Origin: Isoetes taiwanensis
Lineage: Eukaryota; Streptophyta; Lycopodiopsida; Isoetales; Isoetaceae
Reading direction: 5' to 3'
Length of the DNA stretch: 64,000 nt
NCBI GenBank assembly: GCA_021234155.1
Contig: JAJEKV010000114.1
Span: 1,674,476-1,738,475 of the forward strand
Of the stretch, positions 6,321-45,141 are shown in pieces. Positions within the stretch are counted from its first letter, which is position 1, and each line of letters begins with the position of its first letter. The notes beneath the pieces were generated by a model. The model was not told the DNA's origin and searched no databases. It saw only the letters and a program-made list of their open reading frames with translations. The translations under genes were made by a program, and so were the position numbers.

Positions 6321-6929
6321 TTTTCTTGTCCCCTTTGTCCCCCATTTTAGTACTAAAAACCAATAAAGCCACGTGAGGTTGTTATCTTGGAGGCAATTTC
6401 AAATTCCATAAAAAACAAAAATAGTAAAAATTGAATTGCCGCGATTCTTGGAAAATTTATTTCGGCGTGCATTCAGAAAAGGAAAACTAGAAGATCGAAA
6501 TCTTCATGCTTCTCGTCTACCGATTTGTTCCAGGTTTGAATGGATCAATGTTTATTGTGTTTCCTTTTTCCTATTTGCCAAATTCGTTTTCTAAGTAATT
6601 AGTGTATCCGAATCCTTGCCTCATGAATGGGACATGGAAATAGAATTCCAGCGATATATTTGAGTCCGGACTTCGAAAGTAAATTTGAGTCGGACATGGA
6701 AATAGAATTCCACTTGATATCAATATTTTTTAAACTTGAAAGTACTCTCGATAATTCTACCCTAGTCCTATAATATATGTAGTAATGGCTGTATCTACCT
6801 CGGATATTTGGAGCACTATGCTTTAACTCTTTAAGGTTTTGCACTTCAATATAATATTAATGTTTGACTAAATCTGAGATCTAGCTTTCTAAATTTTTTA
6901 GGTGTGTTTTTGTACATTATTTCTTCAGA
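6321..6929. other. Spacer between transposase-like copies A and B
   Basis: AT-rich sequence between two divergently oriented relics of the same gene family. A short duplication (GTCGGACATGGAAATAGAAT near 6628-6708) is visible. No ORF worth annotating. Confidence 0.4.
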
Positions 6930-9900
6930 TGGAGATTGCGGGGATTAGATGCCACTAGGAATGGAAATCCGGATGATACAAGCATGGAAGATTCTGATGC
7001 GATACAAAAAGCGAAGAAAGGAAGACAAAAATAAAGGCTAGATTAAAAAAAGAGCTCAACGTCAAAGGCGCAAGGAGGAGGCAGCTCAATTGGTTTGTAA
7101 TGATGATAATCGTCAAATTCGGGGCTTCCACTATGGAGATTGAAGTACAAGGCTCTTAAAATTGTAAGATACTATTTGAATACTACCAAAGATCTTAACA
7201 ATGATGGCGTGCAAAAAGTATGGGAGCTTGTTAAGAATAATAGGTCGATCAAATTTGAGCTTGATAAAGAGAGGCAAATTGGCGCTGATATTGTATGCAA
7301 TCTAAAGGATGGTCTGCAACAAGTGAAATCAGCATGTAGCAATGATAAACTTGCAGCTAAAAGGGAGCACTTTCTATGTCAATTGCGCATGCACCTCATG
7401 GCAAGAGAAGGCGTTACGCTAAAGCATTAGGTATCCATCCAAGGAACATATCTTTAGCTAGAAGGCATATGATTTCAGTGCAAAAAGGAGAACGTAAGTT
7501 GGCACTTGAAGGAAAAAAAAAGGACTGATTGTCTCAGTGAAGAAGTTATTGATTGTGTTAAATCTTATTGGGCAAACCACACGAGAGTATCTCCAAATGC
7601 TAAAGATGTTAGATCAGGAAGAGGGAAGTATCCTAAACATCCGACACATTATCTCGAAGTGAGCCAGGTGAGTTTTGTCATGCCATATTTTTTATATTCA
7701 ATTATAAAGCATTGTTAAATTTGCTATATTGCTAGTTGATTAAGTAGCATATTAGTGCTAAATTGCTTATGTGGTTAGGTCTTGTTTGCCTCGTTTGTAG
7801 TCAATAGTACTAAATAGCTTCTTATCTTTTAATACTTGCATGAATACTATGAAAAATGGAATTAGTACTTCCTGCGAAATGGGAATATGTATACTAACTA
7901 GTGACGGGGTTTTTGATATTAGTAATAGTGAACAAAAATTAAAATTTGGGAAGGGCGTAATGCGCTAACTAGTACTATGTTGTTTGAGTTAGTGGATCAC
8001 GGTTTAACAGATGCAATAATTTGTACTAGTATGTTTGTTCTAGTACTATCAAGGGAGGTAGCATCGTTTGCTAACTAGTGCTATGCTATGCAAGGTAGGA
8101 CTACTCATGGATGTAGTGGTGCTTAGCACTAGAATGACTTTTTACATTAGCGAGACCCTAATTTTGTGTTTATGCTTGTGTTCTCACGAGTTTACCATTC
8201 TTTGTTGTAATTGCGGATTGAATTTTTCTTGGGCTTCAAGGCTGAGTTTCCCCATGTTGAAATAAAGCGGAGGAGTTTTGAGAAATTGAAACCCTACTTT
8301 GTGGTGAAGTTGAAGGATTTCAATACACATTGTTGCATGCACCATCGAGGAGGATAACCATGTTCTTGGGGAAGGGATCAACAAAATGAGAAGTTCTTCA
8401 TTGGTGCACCCTTGAGTTACAATTGTACATGTCCGATATGCAATAGCGAACACAGGCCAGTAGGTTGTAAGCGCATCAAAGTGGAAGATGAACTCCAGGT
8501 AGTGAGATGTGGAAGAAGATGGTGTGTCCAGAAAGGCGAGGAAGATGATTGGCACAAAATGATTGTCTCGTAGGTGAGTGCAAAACTTGTGGTATTAAAA
8601 TTTTTCCTATTTGCCCAAAGGAGGAAGTTGATGATAGCAACACCAAAGTTCGATGGGAGTATTTGGACTATGAGGATGTTGGCTTTGATAAGAAGGGCAA
8701 AAAAGAAGACTAGATTACAACACGGTTATCTAGAAACCGAACCAAAAGTTTTGATGGAGACATTTAGGAAGAAGGCAAAAGGAATATGTGGGTCATAATT
8801 TCCGTTACAAGTGGCGGGAATCACAATTTAGAAAAGTCATTACAAAGGTTTCGAGAAGATACCATAGTATCTATTCTTGACTTTCTTTGAAAATTACACT
8901 TTGAAAGAAGCGAGAATGAAGTTCAATCAATGCAGCACAATGAATGGGTTACTATTCTTGTTCATTTGACATATAGAAAGGATTCTAAAAGCATAAGAAA
9001 TTATCAAAGAAGAGCATTTTTACATCTCGGATGATAGGCAACATGATTAAGTTGTTAAATGCAATGCTTGCCTTATGTTACATCACAATTGGTTGATTGA
9101 AAACAACATAAAAGCAAAAATGCATGTGCTTTTCTCGGATGGAGCGACTTCCCAATTCAAATCCAGAGAGGATTCTACTTCATTCGAGATCGAAGGGCTT
9201 GGCGGACATGGACATGATGTGGAACTTTTGGGGTTCAGTCACGGTAAAGGAGAACACGATGGTGCGGTCGCGATAATCAAGAGGGCGTTAAAGGCGGCCA
9301 CAGTTGAGAGGTGTTACATTAAGGAATGCTCAAGATATTGTCGAGTGGCTCTGAAAATACATGGAAACAAAGGCTCAACATCTTATCTTAAACAAAGTGT
9401 GGTCGGGAGGCACTTACGGGAAATTGGAAAGGCGAGGTGGATAGAAAAATGAATGGGCTGCAAAAAAGCAGTTAAAGATACAAGAAGCTTGCATTGCATT
9501 CTTGGATTTTCAACTAATCCAACACATTCTGGTAAGAAAGCTTTCTTGTTTACGTTATGCGAATGCATTACGATGAATTGGGATTTTTTCCCAATAAAAC
9601 ACACACAGGAGAATGGAAATTAGTTGTCATTGAGCCCTCTTGCCAAGTTTAGCGGGGATAGGGGAGAGGAAGGCGGCGATGCAATTTATTTTGCGCGTCG
9701 GATGATCTTAGCACCCAGCTCATACTTGGTGATGTTTTTGAGTTGTTGCACCAACAAACAACTATGAGAATGTTGAATTCTATCTTGTTCTATGTACAAA
9801 GCCAAGATATGTTGTTGAGCAGGAGTTTGTAGATCAGCATGGGCAGAAATTTTCCATTGGGGATGAGGTCATCGAAGGTAATTACTATGAGAAGTTGCAC

Positions 9901-31199: not shown

Positions 31200-32660
31200 C
31201 CCCAATATATTCTTACAAGGCCCTTATTTGACCTCAAAAAAACTCTAATGTCCCTAATAACCATCCTTATGATAAATAAATGTGTATTAACGTAGTGTTG
31301 GTTCAGCAGGCCAATAGAACGATCTAAGGGGCAGAAGGGTCGCACTGCGAAGACTTGCAGCACATATTTTGTCATAATGTGTTGTAAGGAGACGAAACGG
31401 ACCTTTAAATTATAAAATCTTAAAACTCTTTGTGAATATTAAGTGTGGAAATTATAAAAGTTTTGTCAATATTAAGTGTTAAATTATAACAAGTTATGAA
31501 ATAAAGGATGTGATCATAATAATTAACTTAAATATTACCTCGAGGTAATTGTTAAAAATTGCATGTATAGAATGAGTTGCAGGGTTCATGCAGGTTTCCA
31601 AGGTGGGGAGACTCGTGATGCTGAGGACATCATCCGGGGAGATTGTGACGTTCAAGTATAATATACGGTATGAATACATATATTATACTGCCACGCCACT
31701 GGTACATGTCACCTTGATGACATGTACTTGGGAACCGTAGAGGGTTGCACCCTAGGGGGCAACCTCTTATGTTGCACATGTCTATAAACATATGCATTTA
31801 ACCCCTTTGCCTCATGGCAAAACCCTACATGCCCTTTTTAACCCTAACCCTAAAAGGCCATGTAAAAGGAACAAAAGGGAAAACCCTGAACATTTTTTCC
31901 TTTTCGCATTTCGGCTTCCAAGAGCCATTTCGGCCAAGCCAAACTGCTATTTCGCATTGCCAGCGCCATCAAGTTGCCTTTGCACAACAGATCCCCAATA
32001 TTCGGTCGCTTTCGCCTTGAACAGAAGCATGGACGCATTCCGAGGAGTTGGAGCAAGCCAAAGATTCAGGTAAATACAATTCTGTTGTGCAATGTCAACT
32101 TTTAGTCTAGCAATGAGCTTTAGCATGTTAGTTCAGCCTAAGAGGCCTTATAGATTTTGAGACCACAAGCTCTAACAAAGGAACCTAACCATGTATGTTT
32201 AGGTAGATAGATTTGGTGTTATTATATGTTTCAGTTCTATGGATGATGATGCTCTATTCTATGTGCACTCCTGTGTATTGGGAAGGGGAGTAGAGACCCT
32301 GAAAGCCTTAGTAGTTGATGTACCTAGATAGCCTCATTAATTCCCAATTAATGCGGCCTGTGCATAAGAGCCCGCCTGGCTGTGAAAAGCACAATTTCAT
32401 TATAATGGGAAAATTTTTAGTAAACTGGAATTTTTTTATTATGGGGGTTGTATAGACCTTATGCAGGGGTTGTATACACGCGTCTATGCGGTACATAGAC
32501 CTTATCATAGACCTTATCATACATACATGTTGTATACGTCTTGATGCAGGTATCATACCAACTTCCAAACACAATAGAGACCGAAGTATGAACTATGTAT
32601 GTCCCTAATAACCTTCCCCTAGGTTCCTAACCCCTTCCCCTGCGAGGTCTAACCCATGCA
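31200..32660. other. Intergenic, one small hairpin
   Basis: Holds a perfect 10-bp inverted repeat GTACATGTCA...TGACATGTAC at 31702-31727. Two telomere-like CCCTAAC words lie near 31840. A plus-strand frame at 31792-32073 is unrecognised. Nothing else supported. Confidence 0.45.
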
Positions 32661-32669
32661 AAATTTGGG

Positions 32670-33208
32670 TTAGGGAAACCAGAGCTCACGCATATCCCAG
32701 CCTGATTCTTCCCACCATATAGGGTACCTAGTCATTGCAAAAAGTAATTCCACAGGATGATACTCACGGAAGAAGAGCGGACCCAACTCCACAAGGTTGT
32801 TGTACTCATTGTAGTACGTCCTAATAAGGCCATACATCTGTCCCTTACAAATTTCATCAATGAACTCTGATATGTATTGATCCAGAGAGTGTGCTAAATA
32901 TCGATCTGAAGAAGAGGCCTCAATTCTTTGTAGCATCTCGTCGGATAAGGAGGGGGTTCAAGAATTCCCCTCATTGCAAGTCTCCTATAACATTCAGATG
33001 GATTAATTTCCATCAGTGGCTCATGACCACAATCAAATCGCTCCAGAATGAAGTTGATCAACTCCATTGCAAGCTCCTTGGTGGGACTGTGGCGCAACCT
33101 CCACTCCAAGAAATGGTCAAATAGCTCATCGGTTCGGGGGCCGCCTGAGAATGCAGGGCATGCTTGCAGGGCTTCTGGAGTAGCCCAGGGAGGATTGGGT
33201 CCAATCAT
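32670..33208 (-). pseudogene. Unknown ORF with one frameshift
   Basis: From an ATG at 33208 the frame reads IGPNPPWATPEALQACPAF and ELAMELINFILERFDCGHEP to about 32940. It then continues one base out of phase as RIEASSSDRYLAHSLDQYIS and FREYHPVELLFAMTRYPIWW to the stop at 32670, about 179 residues overall. Not recognised. The second part could be a separate ORF starting at the ATG at 32936. It lies divergent to the small ORF at 33739. Confidence 0.35.
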
Positions 33209-33224
33209 TTGCAAAAGCAAGCAA

Positions 33225-33560
33225 GGATCACCGACGAAGCAAGGAACACGGAGCAGAGCAAGGAACAAGATCAAATAGCAAGTAGCACGAAGATCAAGTA
33301 GCAAGGAACAAGGATCAAGATCAAGTAGCAAGTCTCAAGATCAAGGAACAAGGAAGATCAAGGAGCAAGAAGCAAGGAACAAGATCAAGTAGCAAGGAGC
33401 ACGGAAATGAAGTAGCAAGGAACAAACAAGGATCAAGATCAAGTAGCAAGAAGCAATGAACAAGGAAGATCAAGTAGCAAGAAGATCAAGAAACAAGGAA
33501 GATCAAGGAGCAAGAAGCAAGGATCAAGATCAAGTAGCAAGGTGAAAAGTGAGAAGTGAA
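33225..33560. repeat. GCAAGGAACAAGATCAAGTA minisatellite
   Basis: About 330 bp of irregular AAGATCAAGTAGCAAGGA-type units. The strand is purine-biased. Open frames extending through it on minus are repeat read-through. Confidence 0.9.
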
Positions 33561-33589
33561 AGCAAGGTGAAAGAATTTATAGCTACGAA

Positions 33590-33688
33590 TCCAATAATGT
33601 TGAAGTATAATACCAATAATGTTGAAGTATAATACCAATAAAGCTGACGTATAATACCAATAATGCTGAAGTATTATACCAATAATTC
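33590..33688. repeat. Four-copy ~23-bp tandem repeat
   Basis: Units of ACCAATAATGTTGAAGTATA with small changes (AAGCTGACG in the third). The array ends just before a TATA-like CTATAAAAG at 33697. Confidence 0.85.
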
Positions 33689-33738
33689 TACAACGACTAT
33701 AAAAGCAGCTCCATTCGGTGGTAGAAGTCATTCATCTC

Positions 33739-33980
33739 CCATGGCTTATAATATTTATGAAGATCGGTTTGAGACCATTATTTGCTCCATGAGCTACAAT
33801 GATATTGTTCGGTGCCTACATAAAGGTGCTAAGCTGGATCCTTACTTAGAATCCAAAGCACAAGGTCGTGAGTGTCATTGCCCCGGCCTTACTCGTGTTG
33901 TGATCCATCTTCTTTAGCTTCCTGAGCGCCATGCCTACGAGCTGAATGCGATCACGTTAGCAGGGATTGAAGATGGGTGA
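33739..33980 (+). pseudogene. Small unknown ORF with internal stop
   Basis: ATG at 33739, about 40 bp after CTATAAAAG. It reads MAYNIYEDRFETIICSMSYN, then NDIVRCLHKGAKLDPYLESK, to a TAG at 33917. The same frame stays open past that stop (LPERHAYELNAITLAGIEDG) to a TGA near 33978. Unrecognised; it could be the partner of the divergent ORF at 32.7-33.2 kb. Confidence 0.3.
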
Positions 33981-34202
33981 ATCATCGACTCTATAATGCC
34001 ATCAACAATATATATGTGCATCTAAATTATATGTATGCCATCAATAATGTGTGCATCAGATGTAATGATGTGCATTAAACACCTATTATAAAAGATGTAA
34101 GGATGTAGTATAAGCATAATGAATATTATTTGATGTATCGACTATGTATTAATTGTCCAAAATTCTTAAGTATTATAGCAAGAGAAATTACATACATGAT
34201 TA

Positions 34203-37200
34203 TCAAGAACATGACTGAGATTGAGAGCTTTTAGCTAATGCTATGTCCTCCCACATGTCAACAATGTATTTTGGAATCTGAACAGTCTTCGGTCTTTTGC
34301 CATTTGCATCCCATGCATAATGTATGGCATCTAACTTCTCATACTTTGATGGATCGATGGATTGGGTGTAGCGTTTAGTTAAGCAACCTGTATAGTCACG
34401 ACCAACAGGCATCCACCATGATACATAAATGTGACCATAATTAGTAGACTCTGGATCTAGGATGGCATCTTCTTCTGTAAAGCCCAACCACGTTGGAGTT
34501 TCATCGTCTCCAGGTCGGACTAAAACGAACATACCTTTCGTAACATGTGCATGAGGATCGAACTCATCCATAGGTAACACTTTGGGCGCCCATCTGGCGG
34601 CCCACAATGTCGTAGGCAAAGGTCTTACAAGCCAATGTGCCTTCATCGACCTCTGGAGTAAATGCGGCTTGTAGAGGTTCTTGCCTTATGCGCAACAAAA
34701 GTTATCATTTTGAGGAATTAGATCACGGAGATACATCTTCCAAACACAAAAGAATCTCATTCCAGTAATCCATAGTTGCTTTGTACTGTCGTGCAAACAC
34801 ACTATCTTCTTGATTTTTGCAGAAGGAATTCCATAATGCTATGTACTTGCTGATGTTGTCTGCCAGGCCAGGGAGATCTTTCAATGTCTTCCTTGGAGGG
34901 ATATTTTTAGGCACCCCTGTTGGTAACGTTGGCTCACCATTTTCATCCTCCTTCCACATTCTTATTCCTTTTTCTGGAATAATGGGTCATTTTCCATCCA
35001 TTTTAAATCGGAATAGCAATGGGTCGGTATGGCCTATTAGACGTTGGCCTTTATCAGGGATATATCCCTTGACAAAGCCTTTCCAATCTGGAACTTCATC
35101 CACAAAATATGGAACAGGAGACTTTGCATTGCACTTGCTAAACAAGTAAAGCAACTCAGGCAAAGTTAGAGCATCCGATGAACTCATTAACGTCGAAAAG
35201 TTCCCAAACAATGCATCAATATCGTCATGAGTGTGTCTAACCATCATGAAGCCAACCTGAATCTCATCGAATACCTTAAGCCATGTCAAATAAGAGAGGT
35301 AGGAGAACACATATCTATTTTTATTTTGACCCGATGCATTATCCAACTGTAAGTAGAGATTTCGAGGAAGAGGATTGAAGCCTTCTAAGTAGGCACTAGA
35401 AGATGAAGGCATCATCTCTTGTGTCTGCGCTAGCTTATGCTGCACTAGTCGAGTATCTTTTAGGGCTTGCATCAATTTGCAATCTGTAGTTCTGCTTCCA
35501 CACAGATCACCACACTTGTCTTCTTCCGGCAACTCAAGATAGTGTAGGATCCTAGAAAGTGAACCAACATGAAAGTTTGAGTCATCTTTCCAAAGATCTA
35601 GAGAGAAATGGCCATAAGCCCGTCCACCGTGACCATGTGTCAATGCTCCTGTCAAGCTGCTCTTCAAGCGATCTCCTCTCCAAACAGACTTTGCGAGATG
35701 GTGACTTCTTGGTGTGAGTGTTTTGACCTGATCCATCTTATCATGTATTATGCAAAGGTGACTTTCTGGCGAACGATGTGATAATGCACGCCAATGCCAA
35801 TATTGACTCCTACAGGAACGTTGTTCCAACATATGTGCCCGCCGTTGAATTGAAAGATCGCGCCTCTCCCTTGTATCTTTTGTTCTTTCCAATTTCTGCT
35901 TGATGACTACACATATGTTACACTTGGAGAATGCTGTATTTTTGGCTATGCTGACGTCTGGAAACTCTTTCTTCCAAATATTGTAAAAGGGTGAAAGCAT
36001 GCTAGGGTGTACCATCTAAAGTACTTTTTAGGGAGTGCAAAACTACCCAGAAAAGTACCCAGGACTGGGTACTGGGAACTTGCATAAATGTCGCAATAAA
36101 CAATAAATTTGGGAGTTAATTCATTTATTTTAGTCTCTAAGAGTATTGTTATCCTCGAATACTATAGATTGACATGTTATTGACCTTCAATTCAAAAAAT
36201 TTCGATTGATTTTATTGGAAAGAAGAAACAGAAAGTACCAGTTTTAAAAGTACCCAGTGTAGGTACTTTTGAGGGTTCCAAAAGTGGTACACTGTAGCAT
36301 GCTTTTACCCAAAAAGAGGGCAAGGTTACACTCTTTCCTGTCAATTCTTCTACCACGGCATCCACTTCCTTATGTATGCTCTTCTTATTAAGGATGGAAG
36401 GAAGTTTGCGAATATTCTCCATTATATCATCCTTTCCTTTTTTGCTTCTATGTGGAATGCTCTCCGCATTCTCACTAATGAAGGTATCAAGCACACTTTC
36501 TGTAGCTAGTGTCACAGATCTAGGCTTCTTAGAGCCTGTATTACCATGGTCCGCCTGTTTTCCACCTAACTTGAACCTCTTCCTCCAACTATAAAACGTA
36601 GACTGAGCAACTCCTAAAGCCACGCGCCATGCGAATTGACAGCACTCCACTCCAGAGACCACTACTTTCGCCTCCGACTGCCCTGTATAAGTTACACTCA
36701 ACACATCAAAAACAAGCGTAATCCTGGCACTGCTTGATTGAGAATAAAATTCTTTTCTTAAGGCACATACTTGCTCTCGGCTCAGTTTTTTGACACATTC
36801 GTCCTTGCAGCATGTTGATTTTAGAGCACTCTTGATTGACTTGGAAGCGCGCATCCTCTCCTCCTTGCTATCCCCCTTTGGTTCCCTCCTCACATATGTA
36901 TATTTCCTTTTCCTCTTGAATTGCTTCTCAACATCAGCTTCCAAGCACTCAACTTCTAAGTCATCATGTTCGAGAGCAGCTCGAGCTTGTAAATGTTGTG
37001 AAACTGTCCTACCATCATGAAGCAAACTATCATGGGTCTCCCAGGTTACTAGACTGTTAGCCTCTCAGCACAAGCATGACATGACCTGATATGAAAGCCC
37101 GACCTTTGATACACCCAAGAACTCATCGTCTATAGCATCCTGAGGATCACTAAAGAGTATATTCGCCTCCGAATATTTAGATCCAATGCAGGAGTGAAGA

Positions 37201-37589
37201 ATGTAGCATGGCAAACCAAGTAGATCTGTTCTGGAGTAGTAGACTGTCTCATCTCCAGGCTTAAACAACCTGAGACCGAGACGGGCAGCTAGATTTTCAT
37301 GACCTCCAATCTCCTCTACTATCTCGTCTTCTTCATTTGTTGCTGTGTTGCTTGGTTCACCACAGTGAGCAGTGAAACTGATGTCCGGCGGGCTACTGAC
37401 AGATGGTGGACTACTAGATGAATCCTCTTCAGAAGAGGGCAAATTGAGGGATGTCGAAGACGTATCTTCACTTGAGGGGCACTCAACATGTTTTACATCC
37501 CTCTTAGGCCACTGAATGAATGTGCCTACTGCTTCACCAATGTTATCTGCCCCTCCGCAGGGGACTGGAAGCTCCGTCGATGGGATCAC
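34203..37589 (-). pseudogene. DUF7869-type transposon protein, interrupted
   Basis: Read downwards: an acidic Ser/Pro-rich N-terminus (37589-37068), a basic region (KRKRKYTYVRREPKG) and a helix-turn-helix-like WRVALGVAQSTFYSWRKRF stretch. Then come a Cys pair (SKCNICVVIK) and the DUF7869 core with LYLQLDNASGQNKNRYVFSY and VGFMMVRHTHDDIDALFGNF. A C-terminal module (34203-34646) has VSWWMPVGRD. DUF7869 proteins are multi-copy, transposon-borne and probably transposase-related; that role is inference. The frame is broken by single TGA codons at 37067-37065 and 34989-34987, by a 322-bp MITE at 35989-36310, and by a frameshift and stops near 34.66-34.73 kb. Removing the MITE and one TTTT copy rejoins the flanking frame exactly. 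Confidence 0.7.
35989..36310. mobile_element. 322-bp MITE, copy 2, inside the DUF7869 gene
   Basis: Inverted relative to copy 1 and of identical length. Ends are GGGTGAAAGCATGCTAGGG and the inverse of GGGTAAAAGCATGCTACAG. AAAA flanks both sides. It is a clean insertion into coding sequence. Confidence 0.85.
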
Positions 37590-37819
37590 GGACTCCGTGA
37601 CCTCAATTCTACATTTAAAGGATCTATTTCCGTCCCATGAAGAGTGGTTCTATTCAAAATATGGCCCCGGGCAACAACTGTCCTTCCGACGAATAGGTTG
37701 TACAGGGGAAAATTGAACCTGTTTCAATCAAGCAAGGCGACACTTTTTAGAACATATGAATTAGACGAAAAACAAGCAATAAACAAGCAAAAATGGCGCC
37801 ATTTAGTACAAAAGAATAA

Positions 37820-38130
37820 ATTTTGGTGTAAATTTAGAGTCAAATGGAGCCATGGCGCCATTTGGTCGAAATGGTGCACTTGGATCAAATGGTTTGTTCC
37901 AAACATTTGGAACAAACTTGGAACAAATGGCGCCATGGCGCCATTTGTTCTAAGTGCACCATTTCGACCAAATGGCGCCATGGCTCCATTTGGCTCCAAA
38001 TTTACATCATTTCGACCGTGCACCGTTTCTGCCATGGTGCCATTTAGACCAATACACCATTTTTGTGGTGTATTTGGAACAAAATGGCGCCCTGGCGCCA
38101 TTTGATCCAAGTGCACGCCATGGGGCGATT
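37820..38130. repeat. Large inverted repeat built on ATGGCGCCAT palindromes
   Basis: About 190 bp (37820-38010) forms a near-perfect hairpin: AAATTTAGAGTCAAATGGAG on the left pairs with CTCCATTTGGCTCCAAATTT on the right. Each arm carries ATGGCGCCAT and GTGCACCATTTCGACC-like words. More copies of the palindrome follow to 38130. Open frames here are read-through of the repeat. Confidence 0.85.
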
Positions 38131-39370
38131 TGGCTTAGCTGCCTATGTTATGCATTCTTGCTCCCATTGCTGTATATGTGTCAATAAGAGCAGGCATGCA
38201 TAACATGGGCACCCCATGCCAACTTTGCAATTGAAACCAAGGTTCTTAGTGTCCTAGCAGTATGATCATCATCGACATTTGAACCGCGCTATACACATGG
38301 CGACAATAGAACATAATTCCTACGAAAATAGTGGACTTACTTGATATTAGATAGATCCATAGTGGTAGATCTTTGGAGCGATAGATGGAACAGGGAAAAA
38401 CAAAGGCGATCAGCCCAGATGAATTCGCAGAAGAGAAGCGCCAAGAAGAAAAAGCCAAGAATCACACAGGATTTCGTGGCGCCAAGAAGAAAGCGCTGGC
38501 AAAGACGCATCGCCTTACAAAGTTTACGCCTAGGCGCTGAGAAAGCGCGCTTTATCACGGCGGCGGTGAAAAGAAATGGCCCGGATTCAGCGCTGAGCAG
38601 ATACCACCAAAACGTCTGCGCGTCGTGCCATGGTTAAACTTTAAAGCGGGAGAATGGCGACAAAGAGGGAGCTTTAAATGCAAAGTACAATTTTAAAAGA
38701 AGGGGACGATTCAAATTTGGACAGGTGGCAGTCAAATTTCATTTACGGGCGGGAATTTTGAATTTTATGTTAAAATTTGCACAGGTGGCAAGTTTTTAAA
38801 TTACGGGCGGGATTTTTAAATTTTATGTTGAAATTTAGGCGGGCGGGAGGAAGGGTGGGAAATATTCGAATTTGAAAGTTCAAATTTGGGCGGGCATGGG
38901 CGCCTGGACCGCCACGGGCATGGGCGGGCATGGGCAGCTGGGCGGGCATAGGCGCTGGACATACGCAGGCCTAATTGGCGCTTTGTGAGTACAGCCGAGA
39001 CGGCCCGGCGGCCAAAGTTAGTTATGCCTCATTGTTTCTGGAGGACCTCATTTGTTTTTTTCGTTTTTGATTTCAGCTCTCAGCGCCTCGATCTTAGCCG
39101 CCAGCGCCCAGCGCCTAGTGCCCAGCGCCTCGAGCAACCCTTTTTTGGCCTCTGTTCTCAGTGTTTTCTGAGCCATTTCCCTACAGTTTAGCGCCTTACC
39201 CCTTCAAGCTACACACAAGTTTTCGGGCCAAAAATCAAGGCGCACGAAATGGAAATCGACAATTCTGGAGCTCCTTAGAATGTGGAGACAGCGGCTGGCG
39301 CCCCGCAAGGCACAGGTATGTCATCTACTTGCATTGTTTCGTTTGGTCTAAATGGCACCACCACGCCATT
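38131..39370. other. Spacer between the DUF7869 and ParB-like genes
   Basis: Contains a 98-codon plus-strand ORF (38341-38637, very basic, unrecognised). A two-copy repeat of about 60 bp around ACAGGTGGCA...ACGGGCGGGA lies at 38719-38838. A GGCGGGCATGGGC-rich stretch lies at 38885-38955. There are many AGCGCC words to 39130. No gene I can support. Confidence 0.4.
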
Positions 39371-39661
39371 TGGATATCTTAGCTTACTCTTCGGTCTTGT
39401 TGTTGGCAAATGGCGCCATGGCACCATTGGATGCCTATTAGCTTATTTTAGGGTCTTATTGTTGACAAATGGCGCCATAGCGCTTTTTGGATGCCTGAGC
39501 TTACTTTACGGTCTTGTTGCTGGCAAATGGCGCCATGGTGCCATTGGATGCCTATTAGCTTACTTTAGGGTCTTGTTGTTGGCAAATGGCACCATGGCGC
39601 CATTAGGATGCCTATTAGCTTACTTTAGGGTCTTGTTATTAGCAAATGGCGCCATGCCATT
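39371..39661. repeat. Five-copy ~58-61-bp tandem repeat
   Basis: Each unit opens GGATGCCTATTAGCTTACTT (first unit variant) and ends in AAATGGCGCCATGG plus GCCATT. The ORF spanning the array reflects repetition and is not a gene. Confidence 0.9.
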
Positions 39662-39670
39662 TGTATCTGA

Positions 39671-40430
39671 GTCCAGTCCATAAACACTAATGGAAGCATT
39701 CACATATGCATTAGCAATAAGAAGCAATCTACCAAGTAAATGGCGCGATGGAGCCATTTGCTTGGTAGATTGCTTCTTATTGTGTTGCGTTCTCTAGTGC
39801 ATTCTCCTATTACGGGTCGCAGGTGCCTCCACCCAGTCCGAGCTACTCTCCTTCGAACCATCTTCCTCGAATATTGCGAAGGGGAGGGGCTCGGACTTGG
39901 TGAAACCTCTACTGACAAACGAGGAAATGCAATGAGGCTGCTTTCATGTGTTTTACGCGGACTTCTCGGATGTAAATGGCGCATTTGCCTGAGTAAATGC
40001 AGTGCACTTTTAGCTTGTTCAAATCAGACATGTAGTCAAATGGCGCCATTTGCATCAGTCCAGTGATTAAACACAGAAGCATTCACATATGTATTAGCAA
40101 TAAGAACAATCTACCAACCAAATGGCGCCATCGCGCCATTTGCTTGGTAGATTGCTTCTCATTGTGTTGCGTTCTGTAGTGCACTCTCCTACGAGTCGCA
40201 GGTGCCTCTACCCAGTCAGAGCCACTATCCTTCGAACCATCTTCCTCGAATATTGCGAAGGGGAGGGGCTCGGACTGGGTGGAGGCCTCTGCGACCAAAC
40301 GCAGGGAAATGCATTCGAACTGCTTCCATGTGCTTATGCACTGGACTCAGATGCAAATGGCACCATGACGCCATTTGCTTAGTCGTCTGGTCTGCCTGCT
40401 TGTTCAAACCAGAGTTACTGATGCCTCTTT
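39671..40430. repeat. Tandem duplication (~385 bp) with long hairpins
   Basis: Two similar units, about 39671-40057 and 40058-40430. Each has a long inverted repeat: at 39714-39781 CAATAAGAAGCAATCTACCA pairs with its inverse around an ATGGCGC...GCCAT loop, and at 40098-40166 a slightly diverged version. The minus strand of both units is open over an acidic stretch (FAIFEEDGSKDSGSDWVEAP), possibly a duplicated exon fragment. Confidence 0.8.
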
Positions 40431-41089
40431 GTTACTGATGCCTCTTTGTTGCAGCTATATTACGTCCGGAACCACAATTTCAATCCGACCCGGACAATCA
40501 TCTTTGATAGGCGAGGCGGTGCATGGAAATAATGCGGGAGAGCACCTCTGCTCCCACAGGCTCGAAAAAAGAGAGCTCTGCCTGCTTATAAAGGAGACTG
40601 CTGAAGAATCAGCCGGAATTTACCAGCCGGGTATCTTGGTCAGCATGAAGATAGTTACCAAGAGCGGTCGCGATGATTGATCCGGGTGGTCCTTGAGGAT
40701 ACTATGCAGCAGAGAATAATTGTCTATTATGTAGACTGGAAGTTTTATGATCCCAACTGTAATGTCTGCGCTAGTATTGCAAATGTAGCCGGTTCGGCCG
40801 AAGAAGCAAAATTTGGTATTTATACATCATTACAACGACTTTGAAGAAGGCCCGACATCAAAAGTCGGGGAGAAATCTTGAGGGGCTTTATGATTCTTAG
40901 CAATCGTATGAGCGAGTCGAAAACTTCGTCTTCATTCGTTGTCAAGGCATTAGCCAGCCCGAAACTACCCGCATTGTGGACCGCGGCTGGCTAAAATAGT
41001 TAGCAGGAAGAAGACAAGACAAATGAAGGAGGCAGCTGCAGCCGAAAAAGACTCCTCATCTGCTACTGAGGATGTTGGCCAGGAAATTG

Positions 41090-41296
41090 AGGAAGGAAAG
41101 GCGAGCGGGCAAGGGGAAAGTTAAGAGAAATGATCACAAAGATCCTGAGAAGGAAAAGAAAGAAAAGAAGGAAAAGAAAGAGAAGGAAAAGGGACGGGAA
41201 AGGGCGAAGGAAGGAAAGGCGGACCCGGGGAAAAGGAGGGAAAGGAAGGGAGACGGAGGAAATGGAAGGAAAAAGAAGAAGAAGAAGCCGCAGGGC
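41090..41296 (+). repeat. Purine-rich Lys/Glu linker tract
   Basis: About 200 nt of nearly pure A/G (GAAAAGAAAG-type words) encode a Lys/Glu/Arg-rich stretch in two plus frames, with a Pro/Ser/Phe-rich shadow on minus. It probably encodes the disordered linker between the N-terminal region and the ParB-like domain. Confidence 0.7.
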
Positions 41297-42184
41297 TAGA
41301 GACCTCTCGAGAAGGATAGAACACCTAAAAACAAAGAAGACAGACTTCAGACTCCTAGTCCTGGTGGAAGTCCAAAAGCGGACAGAGGAGGCGGCGGCGA
41401 GGCGAAAGTGGTGGTGACATTCACGCAAGCCCATCACATATCCAGGATTCTGCAGGCACACCGGCCAAAAGGGTCACCACCGAGAAGCCCAAGGAGCGCA
41501 GGCTTACATTAAGAATAGCTCAGCACTTGCTCGAGGTGCCTGCAAATCTTAAAGTGGAAAGATCGAGAAGAGGAAAAAGGCGGCGAGAGACAACGTTCTG
41601 AAAGATCTTTGACCACCGCCATCTTTTTCCTCTTGGCATCACATTCATAAAATGGATAAATGTGTTCAGCCTATATCAAGGGCCTGCAAATCTGACATCT
41701 AGGCCAAGAAATATGGAGCACGTGAAAACCTTAGTGGAATCCTTTCAAAGGGACCCACATCCAGTGTTTACTCCCGCGGACGTGATTCCATTCAATCCCC
41801 TCACAAAGAAACTGCACCCTTGGAAAACTGAGGATGACCTCATGGGGATGCACTATTACATAGTGAATGGCAATCATTCTGTTATGGCCGCTCAGCTTGT
41901 ATGTAAAAGACTCGGCACAGCAAAGTCCCAAGAGCAAATGGCAAAGATTTATGAGTATCGGAATTGCCGAGTCTTGTCTGGCACGGTCAACGAGCAAGAA
42001 TGCCTGCAGCTCAGTTGTGAAGTCAATGATATCGCTGCCAAGACTATTTTCAAGGAGCCCTTCATTGATAAAATAGCCCACCTGTGGCACCAATATGCTC
42101 TCTGCGGGAAGCCTGATCCATCGGGACGCGGGCAATCACGCTCAGAACCATACAAGCTACATAGTGTTTTAATTGTTGGCAAGA

Positions 42185-42242
42185 TTAGCAAATGGCGCCA
42201 CGGCGCCATTTCCTCACCAAATGGCGCCACGGCGCCATTTGA
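42185..42242. repeat. ATGGCGCC palindrome pair in an intron
   Basis: Two copies of AAATGGCGCCACGGCGCCAT lie back to back between 42187 and 42241. They sit within the sequence I read as an intron (about 42164-42281) of the ParB-like gene. They match the palindromes at 37.8-38.1 and 39.4-40.4 kb. Confidence 0.8.
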
Positions 42243-42586
42243 TAATCATTTGCATTCAAGACTAACTTCTTGTTGTTTCCAGCGTAATCTAGCTTTGGTT
42301 GAACTTACCATGCGTGGTAAGCAACCGAAAGATTTCAACCAGTGGGTCTTCATGCCAGAGGATATTTTTCAGCTATTCATATCCCTATGGAATTTGTGGA
42401 AATCTTGCAAGCTAAAAGATAATAAGGGACAAACTGTTACCTGTAACTGGGCAAAAGATTCTGACTACTTCAGTTAGACCTACCTGAGGTGCATGAGGGG
42501 TCTCGACTATGAAGACTGTCGGGTTTTGTTCCAGGAAGTGCTGGATGGGAAGACCTACGTGAAGGTCACCAGTGATTATACAGGTA

Positions 42587-42886
42587 GGGTAAAAGCATGT
42601 TAGGGGTCCCTTAAAAGTATTATTTAGTGACTAAAAAGGTACCTAAAAAGGTAGCAGTGGAGTCTTGGAGTATATAATATTCAATATAAGGTATGTTTTA
42701 GAACTTTTTTTATATATATATTGGTCTCAGATAGCATTATCTTTATCTTAACTTTGAATATTACCATGTCCTTGACTTTTATTTTGGATTTTTGTATTAG
42801 TTTTAATGAAAAGAAAAATGAAAAGTACCTTAAAAATACCTAGTGTATGTACTTTTGAAAAAGTGGTACACCCTAACATTTTTACC
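42587..42886. mobile_element. MITE, copy 3, inside the ParB-methyltransferase gene
   Basis: Ends are GGGTAAAAGCATGTTAGGG and the inverse of GGTAAAAATGTTAGGG, with GTA on both sides. It is more diverged and slightly shorter (300 bp) than copies 1 and 2. Removing it with one GTA rejoins the flanking frame. Confidence 0.75.
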
Positions 42887-43286
42887 GTAAGCAATTCTTC
42901 AAGACAAGGGCAAAGACACTACGATCTATATCGTTCTTGAAGAAGGATATTTTTGAATATGTGAAGGATAATTTTTCAGAAGAAGTTGACATCCTTCAGC
43001 GATCTCGATTTGCCGTGGGCGGAGCCGAAGATCTTGACTTGATTTCCATGGCCACCTTGCATAGTAAGTGGGTTGAAGTTGGAGTGACCAAGGAAGGAGT
43101 TTTTGTAGCGTGCCACCTGCCTTGGCAAGATTTATCATAATGTTGTCTTGTAGAGAGGATCTTTGAAGACTTTTCGTTCTGCGAAGTTGAACTAACAGAC
43201 GCAATGAGGGGGCAAGTTGTTTGCACTCTGTATGCCGGTATCCTTGATAGTCACGGACACTAGAGGCATAACTCAATGTGAGACAA

Positions 43287-43356
43287 AACCACACTATCTA
43301 ACTTTTTAATCACGGTAAAAAGAACACCACGGTGATTCTTTCTAGATAGTGTGCTT
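43287..43356. repeat. Short inverted repeat (hairpin)
   Basis: ACACTATCTAACTTTTTAAT with CACGGT pairs with its imperfect inverse ending TAGATAGTGTG; arms are about 26 bp. It lies between two pieces of the methyltransferase region and may be a small insertion or intron. Confidence 0.6.
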
Positions 43357-44132
43357 TACAAAACCGAGCATAATTTTTGATTTCATCGTGTTAGATAATC
43401 ACGGATTCCCGGATCGAGTTTTTATTGGCATGTATGAGGATGAATACAAGAATGCACGCCCGCGGGGAGTTCGAGGAGCCCCATGCACTAGTGTACGCCA
43501 CAAAAATTCAGGCCACTGCTGGTGATCTGTCGATGACATTGACCTCAGATTCTCGTTTTGCCGATCATCCTCAAGAAGCGCCACCCGGTTCCGGTTACCT
43601 AATGAAGAAGACTTGAGGGGGAGGCCAAGCTATGGTAGGGAAGCTCTCACCTTGGCGGTCAATGTACGGTGGCAAGGCTTGCCAAGGGATATAATCATGA
43701 AAAACCAGGTGGGGCCTGCCACATGCTCCTATCTCGTGCAGAAAATGGTACTGCCAGGAACAGGAGTGTTTGATTACTTCTCATATGGTTCGTTTGGCTG
43801 GGCTTCATTGATGAATAAGAGATTTTGCATTGTGTTCGAAAGTGACCCAGTTAAGCAACAGCGCCTACAGGGCATTCTTGGTAGGCTTGACCGCCTCCTG
43901 AATCCTATCATCGCAGCAGTTCCTGTGACAGAGAGACAAGGTGCTGTTGTTGAAGATGCCTGCAGCTCAACTCGATGTGGACTACGATGTGATCAAGAAT
44001 ACACAATTCAATCTGGACATTCTTGATGATCCCAATTTCACTGCCACAGCGTTTGAGAGCTTTCAAGGAGATCCTATGGGTGCTTCTTCTAGCCATGGCA
44101 CTGACGATGCGGAACCTGATCCTGCTGCATAG

Positions 44133-45141
44133 CCTGAATTTTTTTTGTGACTATAATGTAAATTGTACAATAATACTTTTGTAAACAGACTATGTCTTCC
44201 AAGTCCTTGCCTGTTGTGGCAAATTTATGGATATGCAAATCTATGAATTTGGAAATTTTTACTGATTTTGTGATCTCATGTTTCTTTAACTTCATTATAT
44301 CGCGATGTCGATTATTTTTAATGGCCAATAAATGGCACTTTAGATGCATTTTTTTTTTTGCTAAATGGTGCCATAATTGCTCAAAAAATCGTCAAAAAAT
44401 GGACTTAAAAGGATTTTCGTCCCTAATTGGAATCACGAAATTTCTCATTTTAATGAAATTGTGCTTTGAATGGCGGGACTAGACCGGCCGCGGGGTAAAC
44501 CCTCCCCCCTCCCCTAGAAGGGTAGTCGAGAAGGATATGCACCAAGGTCTAGTCGGACATAGCATGGGAGCGGGTTTAGGTGTGCCCTAGCTTCCAAGTC
44601 CGGGCGTTTTGGGCTCATGGAAACCCGGGCCTTAAGGTAGCAGAGAGGAGGCTATTATCAAAAAAAAAAGCCACTTGTGCAATTCAAGGCGATCAATACG
44701 ACCACATCAAATGCCACAACTCATAGTCTAAAATCATACTTCCTACTGGTCGATTTTTATTTTATTTCCTCATTTATTTTCTCAGTAATGTGTGTGTTTT
44801 TCCTTTGAAATAGTCTATATATATTTGAATTAAGATTATCAAATACTCCCTTGAAATAAATTCTTGAGGCCAATACAACTGCCATAGATTTCTGTTATTC
44901 GAGTCTCACTATCATTGTTATCTTGGAAAGAATCATCTTAAATAACCATTTGGAGTCTAATCTCTTTTTTGGAAAAAATAATTGGTTTAGTTATAGTGAG
45001 ATGAGTCTTCAAAGCTCAAGTGACATCGCCTATGGTTCACATGAGTCTTCAAAGCTCAAAGTTCAATGGAACTTTTAGATTTAAGTAATTCTAATGATGC
45101 ATGTCTGGAACACTATTTTCGAAGTATGATTATAAATGTGA
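44133..45141. other. Flank of the ParB-like gene; GC-rich SINE-like patch
   Basis: AT-rich DNA with two decayed AAATGGYRCC words near 44330-44375. A distinct GC-rich patch at 44466-44669 ends in an A-run (44660-44669) and could be a SINE or another retroinserted piece. A duplicated GAGTCTTCAAAGCTCAA word lies at 45003-45060. Confidence 0.4.

Follow-up and report, generated by a model that had tools for sequence, protein, structure and literature searches.

The 64,000-nucleotide stretch of Isoetes taiwanensis DNA analyzed here (the window; contig JAJEKV010000114.1, positions 1,674,476 to 1,738,475 of the forward strand) contains a repeat that is a decayed copy of a 12.1-kb cut-and-paste transposon with terminal inverted repeats (TIRs), spanning 32387-44466, of which a gene joining a ParB-like domain to a DNA methyltransferase (MTase) forms the accessory half. 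We think it probable, though well short of assured, that the element as a whole is a DUF7869 transposon whose ParB-MTase protein is a trans-acting factor for palindromes carried by the element itself. The initial annotation, which had proposed a spliced, repeat-embedded ParB-like and beta-class MTase gene of a plant mobile family at 40455-44132, was right in the main, and what it points to is real and under selection. A search for intact copies found them, and they support such a gene, with both halves belonging to one gene rather than to unrelated genes; its coordinates fit that gene, while the mobile unit is larger. The anatomy of the element, the pairing of its genes, its ends, its copy number, its ratios of nonsynonymous to synonymous substitution (dN/dS) and the enrichment of its palindromes were all computed here. 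The genome searched was the window's own (1.66 Gb), and genome-wide match lists refer to the matches listed, in which an unpaired gene is no evidence that its partner is absent.

The ends of the element are as follows.

32383-32386, no strand: left target site duplication, TGAA, with the same 4 bp at 44467-44470
32387-32415, plus strand: left TIR, beginning AAGCACAATTTCATT, an inverted-repeat pair with the right end
44438-44466, minus strand: right TIR, where the homology of relatives stops
44467-44470, no strand: right target site duplication, TGAA

Homology among copies ends at window position 44466/44467. The two TIR arms, 32386-32415 and 44438-44467, pair over 30 nt at 90%, and the limits of 32387-44466 were set by taking AAGCAC as the first bases of the element. 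When as many as two mismatches are tolerated, a 26-base TIR pattern matches the genome 746 + 745 times (1491), compared with 0 + 0 for a reversed control. We looked at nine elements; the left end was not found in four, and in all five with both ends located the element is flanked by identical 4-bp sequences (TGAA in the window, TGTA in C1036, TAAA in C1078, CCTA in C145, and AGTT in C1010, whose left end reads TAGC). Inverted ends together with a target duplication of fixed length (4 bp) place the element among class II TIR transposons. Sola elements make 4-bp target site duplications. The duplication of the Isoetes element fits that length, and its transposase matches Pfam PF25273 (DUF7869). 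A degenerate AGCAAGG-type minisatellite lies near the left end of the element, at 33238-33542.

Within these ends, a DUF7869 transposase gene lies in pieces on the minus strand (34203-37649), divergent from the ParB-MTase gene about 5 kb away.

34203-34685, minus strand: C-terminal piece of the transposase gene, an open frame with the strand and order of the DUF7869 piece and no Pfam match, assigned from its position
34987-36015, minus strand: DUF7869 domain (Pfam PF25273, E 7.5e-40)
36192-37064, minus strand: N-terminal part of the transposase, helix-turn-helix-like (Pfam HTH_29 at 0.0017, below the cut-off)
37065-37649, minus strand: N-terminal piece of the transposase gene, an open frame with no relevant family match, assigned from its position

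The genome holds at least 118 DUF7869 places, and the transposase frames of relatives reach 1136 codons. A ParB or MTase piece lies within 20 kb of 48 of the 118 DUF7869 places listed, and the paired genes are divergent in all 48 cases and 4.8-6.0 kb apart in 37 of them, among the matches listed. Two split pairs among the 120 DUF7869 rows were joined, which gives the 118 of this count; of the 150 ParB and 86 MTase rows, 134 and 82 entered it, respectively, second fragments of one copy being left out. The ParB-like and MTase gene, its ParB fold held under reserve, stands opposite the transposase within one element. Other mobile elements do lie near copies in places (for example, a Ty3-like gag-pol reading frame adjoins copy L005, reverse complement 6810-9001), and the ParB-MTase gene might on that account be a chance associate, derived from an unrelated element nested in or adjoining the transposase. 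We find this scarcely credible in view of the invariant divergence and narrow spacing of the pairs, the single pair of ends that encloses both genes, and a second family with the same layout.

The ParB-MTase gene of the window, and of what we term family 1, has the following parts.

40455-41601, plus strand: exon 1, N-terminal domain and lysine-rich linker, frame broken (DNA homology to L008; protein rows L003, L008 and L005)
41614-42114, plus strand: putative ParB-like domain, intact frame, box VNGNHSVMAAQLV (family 1 to family 2 profile match)
42157-42282, plus strand: intron with four palindromes (42192-42238), donor CT in this copy (boundaries placed from frame and homology)
42283-42586, plus strand: exon 2, first part (middle domain), homologous to relatives, with a stop at 42475-42477
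42587-42886, no strand: insertion of about 300 bp, resembling a miniature inverted-repeat transposable element, absent from L008, L009 and L010 (homology breaks at 42586 and resumes at 42887)
42887-43283, plus strand: exon 2, continued, with a frameshift before 43114 and a broken motif-IV-equivalent region near 43271-43283
43766-43804, plus strand: MTase motif I VFDYFSYGSFGWA, S-adenosylmethionine (SAM)-binding loop (profile match to family 2; Pfam N6_N4_Mtase at 0.0017 on relative L005)
43805-44132, plus strand: C-terminal end of the gene (homologous to the rows of L009 and L039)

The ParB piece has at least 150 match rows in the genome and is thus a high-copy repeat. Of 24 scanned copies, 15 (including L005, L007, L027-L034 and L036-L039) have an open second-exon frame of 507-545 codons that includes motif I, and in L005 and L031 the first exon is open as well. 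In intact copies the order runs from an N-terminal domain through a lysine-rich linker to the ParB-like domain, after which come an intron, a middle domain and the MTase part. The ParB-like box reported by the initial annotation lies inside a 291-codon open frame (41602-42477) in a region kept in relatives, and motif I is in frame and also kept in relatives. The HLPW at 43114-43125 that had been read as motif IV is a product of frameshift: the window copy has slipped, a reading of all three frames places HLPW only out of frame, and relatives have EGV(F/H)G(N/H)(V/M)P(P/F) in frame at this stretch. The insertion at 42587-42886 has inverted ends, GGTAAAA...TTTTACC, as read by eye.

The profile search proposed by the initial annotation gave a divided answer. 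The window pieces match no relevant Pfam family, and the ParB piece matches nothing relevant in the PDB. The intact relative L005 matches Pfam N6_N4_Mtase at 0.0017, below the cut-off, as do 7 of the 16 members of A1, our alignment of 16 family-1 rows across the MTase part, at E <=1; the best score of the window's family against PF01555 is 18.8 bits, under the cut-off of 26.7. The sister family, which we term family 2, scores over that cut-off.

In the genome as a whole, at least 150 scored places exceed the N6_N4_Mtase cut-off, the best of them at 3.0e-17, and first-look candidates number 1444. One of the family-2 loci, L046, carries a DUF7869 transposase (1.5e-51) on one strand and a divergent spliced gene on the other, the parts of which are an N-terminal domain, a ParB-like domain (LGGNHSFKARR), VADLPYGF and VLDAFSGSGTT. 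A second locus, L045, has the same order, and the transposase sides of the two align at 72%. The family-2 MTase matches N6_N4_Mtase at 2.1e-17 (64.2 bits), and the PDB matches of its last exon are beta-class enzymes (MboIIA, 1.8e-9; CcrM, 1.4e-8). Its motif IV, DLPY, lies 168 residues before motif I, and by its motifs the enzyme looks like a canonical, catalytically competent beta-class MTase. The motif-I parts of the two families (A1 and A4) align in hhalign with an E-value of 9.4e-6 and a probability of 82.8%, setting the family-1 motif (VLDFFSGGAFTRA / VFDYFSCGSFGRA) against the SAM-binding VLDAFSGSGTT of family 2; here and below, hhalign E-values are single-pair values, uncorrected for the choice of pair. 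Both family-2 elements examined end in inverted TTGC-ATTAAACG-like sequences with at most two mismatches (L046 with L072, and L045 with L073). The flanks of these two elements (L045/L073 and L046/L072) have the look of palindromic, AT-rich target sites with TTAA or ATAT in the middle. At L044, past the end of the family-2 element, further transposase-like frames on the minus strand (7330-9492) point toward it, two pieces of which have no Pfam match; these are perhaps a third element of similar kind.

Selection on the ParB-MTase protein was measured as median dN/dS by the Nei-Gojobori method, with pairs that are not independent of one another. The MTase exons of family 2 gave 0.08 (45 pairs, 2 saturated) and 0.07 (28 pairs, 11 saturated), and the ParB part of the same family gave 0.03 (10 pairs, 4 saturated). 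For family 1, the values are 0.21 (10 pairs) and 0.23 (15 pairs) for the ParB part; exon 2 gave 0.48, 0.30 and 0.62 inside subgroups. Between subgroups its values are 0.11 and 0.19, with 3 of 36 and 23 of 39 pairs saturated. These ratios point to purifying selection on the ParB-MTase protein, which has therefore mattered to the element; the signal is clearest in family 2 and in the ParB part.

Each family also carries a palindrome, AAATGGCGCC(ATGGCGCC)ATTT in family 1 and AAAGTGTATTCCGGAATACACTTT in family 2, found with at most one mismatch at 2061 and 3557 places genome-wide, respectively, compared with 0 for the controls. Exact copies of ATGGCGCCAT number 12 in the window element and none in the other 52 kb of the window. 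When one mismatch is allowed, the element holds 30, compared with a mean of 0.24 and a maximum of 2 in 100 Markov sequences, and the other 52 kb hold 3 (Markov mean 1.29, maximum 5). Ten of the 30 precede the transposase gene, 15 precede the ParB-MTase gene, four lie in the intron of the latter and one lies near the right end. The two upstream groups form clusters.

37793-38101, no strand: cluster of 10 palindromes ATGGCGCCAT (at most one mismatch), upstream of the transposase gene
39410-40374, no strand: cluster of 15 palindromes ATGGCGCCAT (at most one mismatch), upstream of the ParB-MTase gene, partly a 59-bp tandem repeat

Family 2 is arranged similarly around its own palindrome, the 10-bp core of which, allowing one mismatch, is present in 9, 15 and 15 copies in L044, L045 and L046 (means 0.09-0.24). 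In L046, nine palindromes lie 41-42 bp apart between the divergent genes, and in L045 and L044 tight arrays lie inside an intron. Either palindrome occurs in the other family at most once in the loci tested. The palindrome clusters also track the elements: among the matches listed, 14 of 17 family-1 clusters on the contigs compared have an exact TIR no more than 13 kb away, and all 14 stand on its inner side. For 6 of the 7 family-2 MTase places, the distance to an exact palindrome is at most 5 kb. This comparison took exact matches from 100 listed rows of 1491 TIR matches and from 100 listed rows each of 4122 and 7114 palindrome matches, in which every palindrome place appears once per strand; contig C223, at which the family-1 palindrome rows break off, was left out, and 45 of the 50 places listed for family 2 were used. 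Elements of subfamily B, the intergenic DNA of which aligns with the window in the coding parts and one short stretch and nowhere beyond, hold 10, 3 and 6 palindromes, in which GGCGCC is nearly invariant among the matches.

By analogy with the VANC motifs of VANDAL elements, these palindromes are likely candidate targets of the element's own ParB-MTase. In the mechanism that we favor, the transposase would cut and paste the element, while the ParB-like part or the middle domain would recognize the family palindrome at its sites in both promoters and in the intron; the trans-acting ParB-MTase would thereby mark or control its own element. The MTase of family 2 would probably write N4-methylcytosine (4mC) or N6-methyladenine (6mA). 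The family-1 protein may work mainly by binding, since its motif IV is degenerate. The gain to the element could be escape from silencing, or else copy control or control of its own promoters. We tentatively entertain, as less likely than not, a more specific version, in which the palindromes would be parS-like addresses, matched family by family to a ParB-MTase that methylates (4mC or 6mA) or coats its own control regions.

Sites of this kind might instead be bound by the transposase or by a host factor, the ParB-MTase having some other target. CACTA elements, for example, have subterminal sites that are bound by their transposase. In the Isoetes elements, the palindromes are enriched in both families and persist near TIRs where no element gene is seen, as expected of sites needed in cis for transposition. 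Three such loci, L076, L077 and L078, hold 16, 3 and 16 palindromes near a TIR, while the 2.1-2.6 kb read at each showed no gene of the element (one TIR end each, with gene content judged by eye from open frames of at least 90 amino acids), and they are perhaps deletion derivatives of the family. The palindromes of the window, however, sit mainly in the two promoters and the intron; only one of the 30 is closer than 300 bp to the right end, and none is closer than 5 kb to the left end. Because the change of palindrome between the families accompanies a change of both proteins, it does not separate the two binding readings. On balance, we judge binding by the transposase or a host factor to be rather unlikely, and we retain the ParB-MTase as the favored partner of the palindromes.

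The ParB fold, the binding of palindromes, the methylation and the benefit to the element are the parts of this account that we infer, and the first of these was examined by profile comparison. The ParB parts of the two families (A7 and A6) align in hhalign with an E-value of 1.3e-4 and a probability of 53.5%. The L046 domain has ParB-like families as its two best PHROG matches (0.006 and 0.013), the L053 domain has one in third place (0.19), and DUF6551 matches three family-2 cores at 0.0021-0.011. At the position of the box, family-1 rows (A2) have NGNH or NGNY with S, T or L in the next position, family-2 rows (A3) have GGNHS in 7 of 7, and a bacterial set (A8) has GERR in 6 of 7. The box noted by the initial annotation is real, and the comparisons weakly suggest a putative ParB fold for the domain around it.

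A number of results weigh against the reading of the element as a carrier of a ParB-MTase that acts on its own palindromes. The inter-family profile probabilities are modest for both parts (53.5% for ParB and 82.8% for MTase). Two family-1 cores have no ParB-like PHROG match, and ParB-like families are best hits in one of two family-2 cores only; three cores of the window's family match no Pfam family, and ParB_N (PF02195) has no match in the genome. Compared directly with bacterial ParB in hhalign, family 2 scores 0.041 over columns 4-55, the first half of the domain only, and family 1 scores 0.28 with NGNH placed on the GER box; the pocket arginine of GERRxRA is absent in both families. An AlphaFold model of the window ParB part from a single sequence had a predicted local distance difference test score of 39.9 and was uninformative. 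Some within-subgroup pairs of family-1 exon 2 have dN/dS up to 1.44. Palindromes are fewer in subfamily B, where the count of three in L006 is matched by the highest of its 100 Markov sequences. In subfamily A, the CpG sites of the palindromes are lost at much the same rate as other CpG sites (97/175 kept vs 767/1507), which gives no sign of protection. Family 1 lacks the canonical motif IV, (D/N/S)PP(Y/F/W), and the motif-IV exon of family 2 has no significant match in family 1 (0.29). Protection of the palindromes from CpG decay, considered as a sign of anti-silencing, is unsupported in subfamily A; subfamily B (35/45 vs 341/652) and family 2 (137/307 vs 1852/5507) lean towards it, in counts whose pairs are not independent and, for subfamily B, whose sites are few.

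The catalytic state of family 1 turns on its motif IV. Motif I is kept in all 16 rows of A1, and the motif-IV-like site in the same rows reads (T/N)-P-(I/M/V)-W, with W in 15 and R in one. This site lies 167 residues before motif I in L005, compared with 168 for DLPY in family 2 (two copies); in the window copy, as read by eye, a missing base and a stop near 43271-43283 ruin it. The L009 spacing, reckoned from a chance DYFS farther upstream, was left out. GNVPF/NVPP was rejected as motif IV because its spacing is wrong, 221 residues before motif I in L005 compared with the 168 of the sister family. With so degenerate a motif IV, it is doubtful that the window's family is still able to methylate DNA. 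The family-1 protein could then be a pseudo-methyltransferase that has lost methylation and serves as a DNA-binding anti-silencing or regulatory factor, a reading to which we give somewhat less than an even chance. The invariance of motif I and the near-invariance of the W argue for a retained enzyme instead, as does the fact that some N4-cytosine enzymes have SPPW-like motifs. Yet the protein has no conserved D/N/S-P-P-Y/F/W while its ParB part holds to dN/dS values of 0.21 and 0.23, and VANC proteins are reported to cause methylation loss by motif binding (PMC5735166).

The initial annotation had also likened this architecture to that of phages and had called the family unrecognized. We found no sign of a recent phage origin. 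The ParB part has no relative in viral contigs or phages, the family-2 ParB part has none in prokaryote genomes in a scan for short peptide patterns, and the MTase parts A1 and A5 have none in viral contigs. Phage MTase matches are weak or generic (35 records at E 4 to 10; 711 records at E <=1e-3), prokaryote MTase matches amount to 7 loci, identities are 26-43% among the matches listed, and the phage and bacterial proteins examined are MTases without a recognizable ParB part. A recent phage origin was rejected on these searches because the ParB part has no relative in them and the MTase matches are weak or generic. Bacterial ParB-MTase fusions do exist (such as Bce_0392; PMC5512222), and a recent transfer from a phage or bacterium into the plant repeat would draw on them; the absence, at the sensitivity used, of any relative of the ParB part in these searches, the generic MTase matches, the introns, the strong divergence between the families and the algal relatives already in print make such a transfer very improbable. 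As for the term unrecognized, it is too strong, because a brown algal Sola1 element with the same architecture is already in print, and green and red algal cases are cited there. In the literature searched, we recognized no report of it from a land plant, which is not proof of absence, and found no paper on DUF7869. Elsewhere in the same genome, LEAFY accounts for 28 match rows, made up of two strong genes and many short or stop-ridden fragments of the DNA-binding domain, a pattern that suggests repeated copying of the gene. The best PDB match of LEAFY is the moss homolog 4bhk (2.2e-54), ahead of 2vy1 from Arabidopsis (5.9e-49), in keeping with a host among the land plants or their close kin.

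If the version with parS-like addresses is true, a land plant harbors a self-marking system built from prokaryotic parts, in which protein and target co-evolve family by family. The two families are matched pairs of protein and candidate palindrome in more than 100 copies, and their catalytic motif is canonical in one and degenerate in the other, which makes the idea testable. The idea also bears on the origin of land-plant 4mC and 6mA enzymes and on the escape of transposons from silencing.

Bacterial-type amino-methyltransferases are known in eukaryotes from the rotifer N4CMT and the Marchantia 4mC methyltransferase (PMC8885841). Unlike the Isoetes gene, these are host genes, and no ParB part is mentioned for them in the available text of that report. 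Bacterial fusions of the Bce_0392 type share with the Isoetes gene the pairing of a ParB-like domain with an amino-methyltransferase domain (PMC5512222). The Isoetes gene differs from them in having introns and extra N-terminal and middle domains and in being borne on a TIR transposon, and our searches detected no relation between the ParB parts.

VANC is not known to have an MTase domain or to be a ParB-MTase. VANC proteins of Arabidopsis VANDAL elements recognize short family-specific motifs that have multiplied in tandem in noncoding parts and introns (PMC5735166), and the Isoetes elements resemble them in pairing an accessory protein with family-specific motifs multiplied in the element itself. 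The motifs of VANC21, as given in the same text, are 9 bp long and in one orientation, whereas those of Isoetes are long palindromes. Binding and hypomethylation are shown there for VANDAL elements, whereas what the Isoetes elements show is motif enrichment.

The closest likeness is to Sola1-1_Ec32 of Ectocarpus, a large DNA transposon in which a gene for a ParB and N4-cytosine/N6-adenine MTase protein lies on the strand opposite the transposase, as in Isoetes (PMC12477816, 2025, which also cites green and red algal transposon proteins from Iyer 2011 and Petroll 2025). In that paper the Sola1-1_Ec32 protein is proposed to bind and modify its own element, so that self-marking by a transposon-borne, bacterial-type MTase has been proposed before, with the target site unnamed in the portion available. 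Unlike the 21.5-kb Sola1-1_Ec32 as described there, the Isoetes element is 12 kb long, resides in a land plant in two diverged families, and has a demonstrated 4-bp target site duplication, palindrome clusters and, in one family, a degenerate motif IV. New here are the land plant host, the presence of two families in one genome, and the family-specific palindromes as candidate targets.

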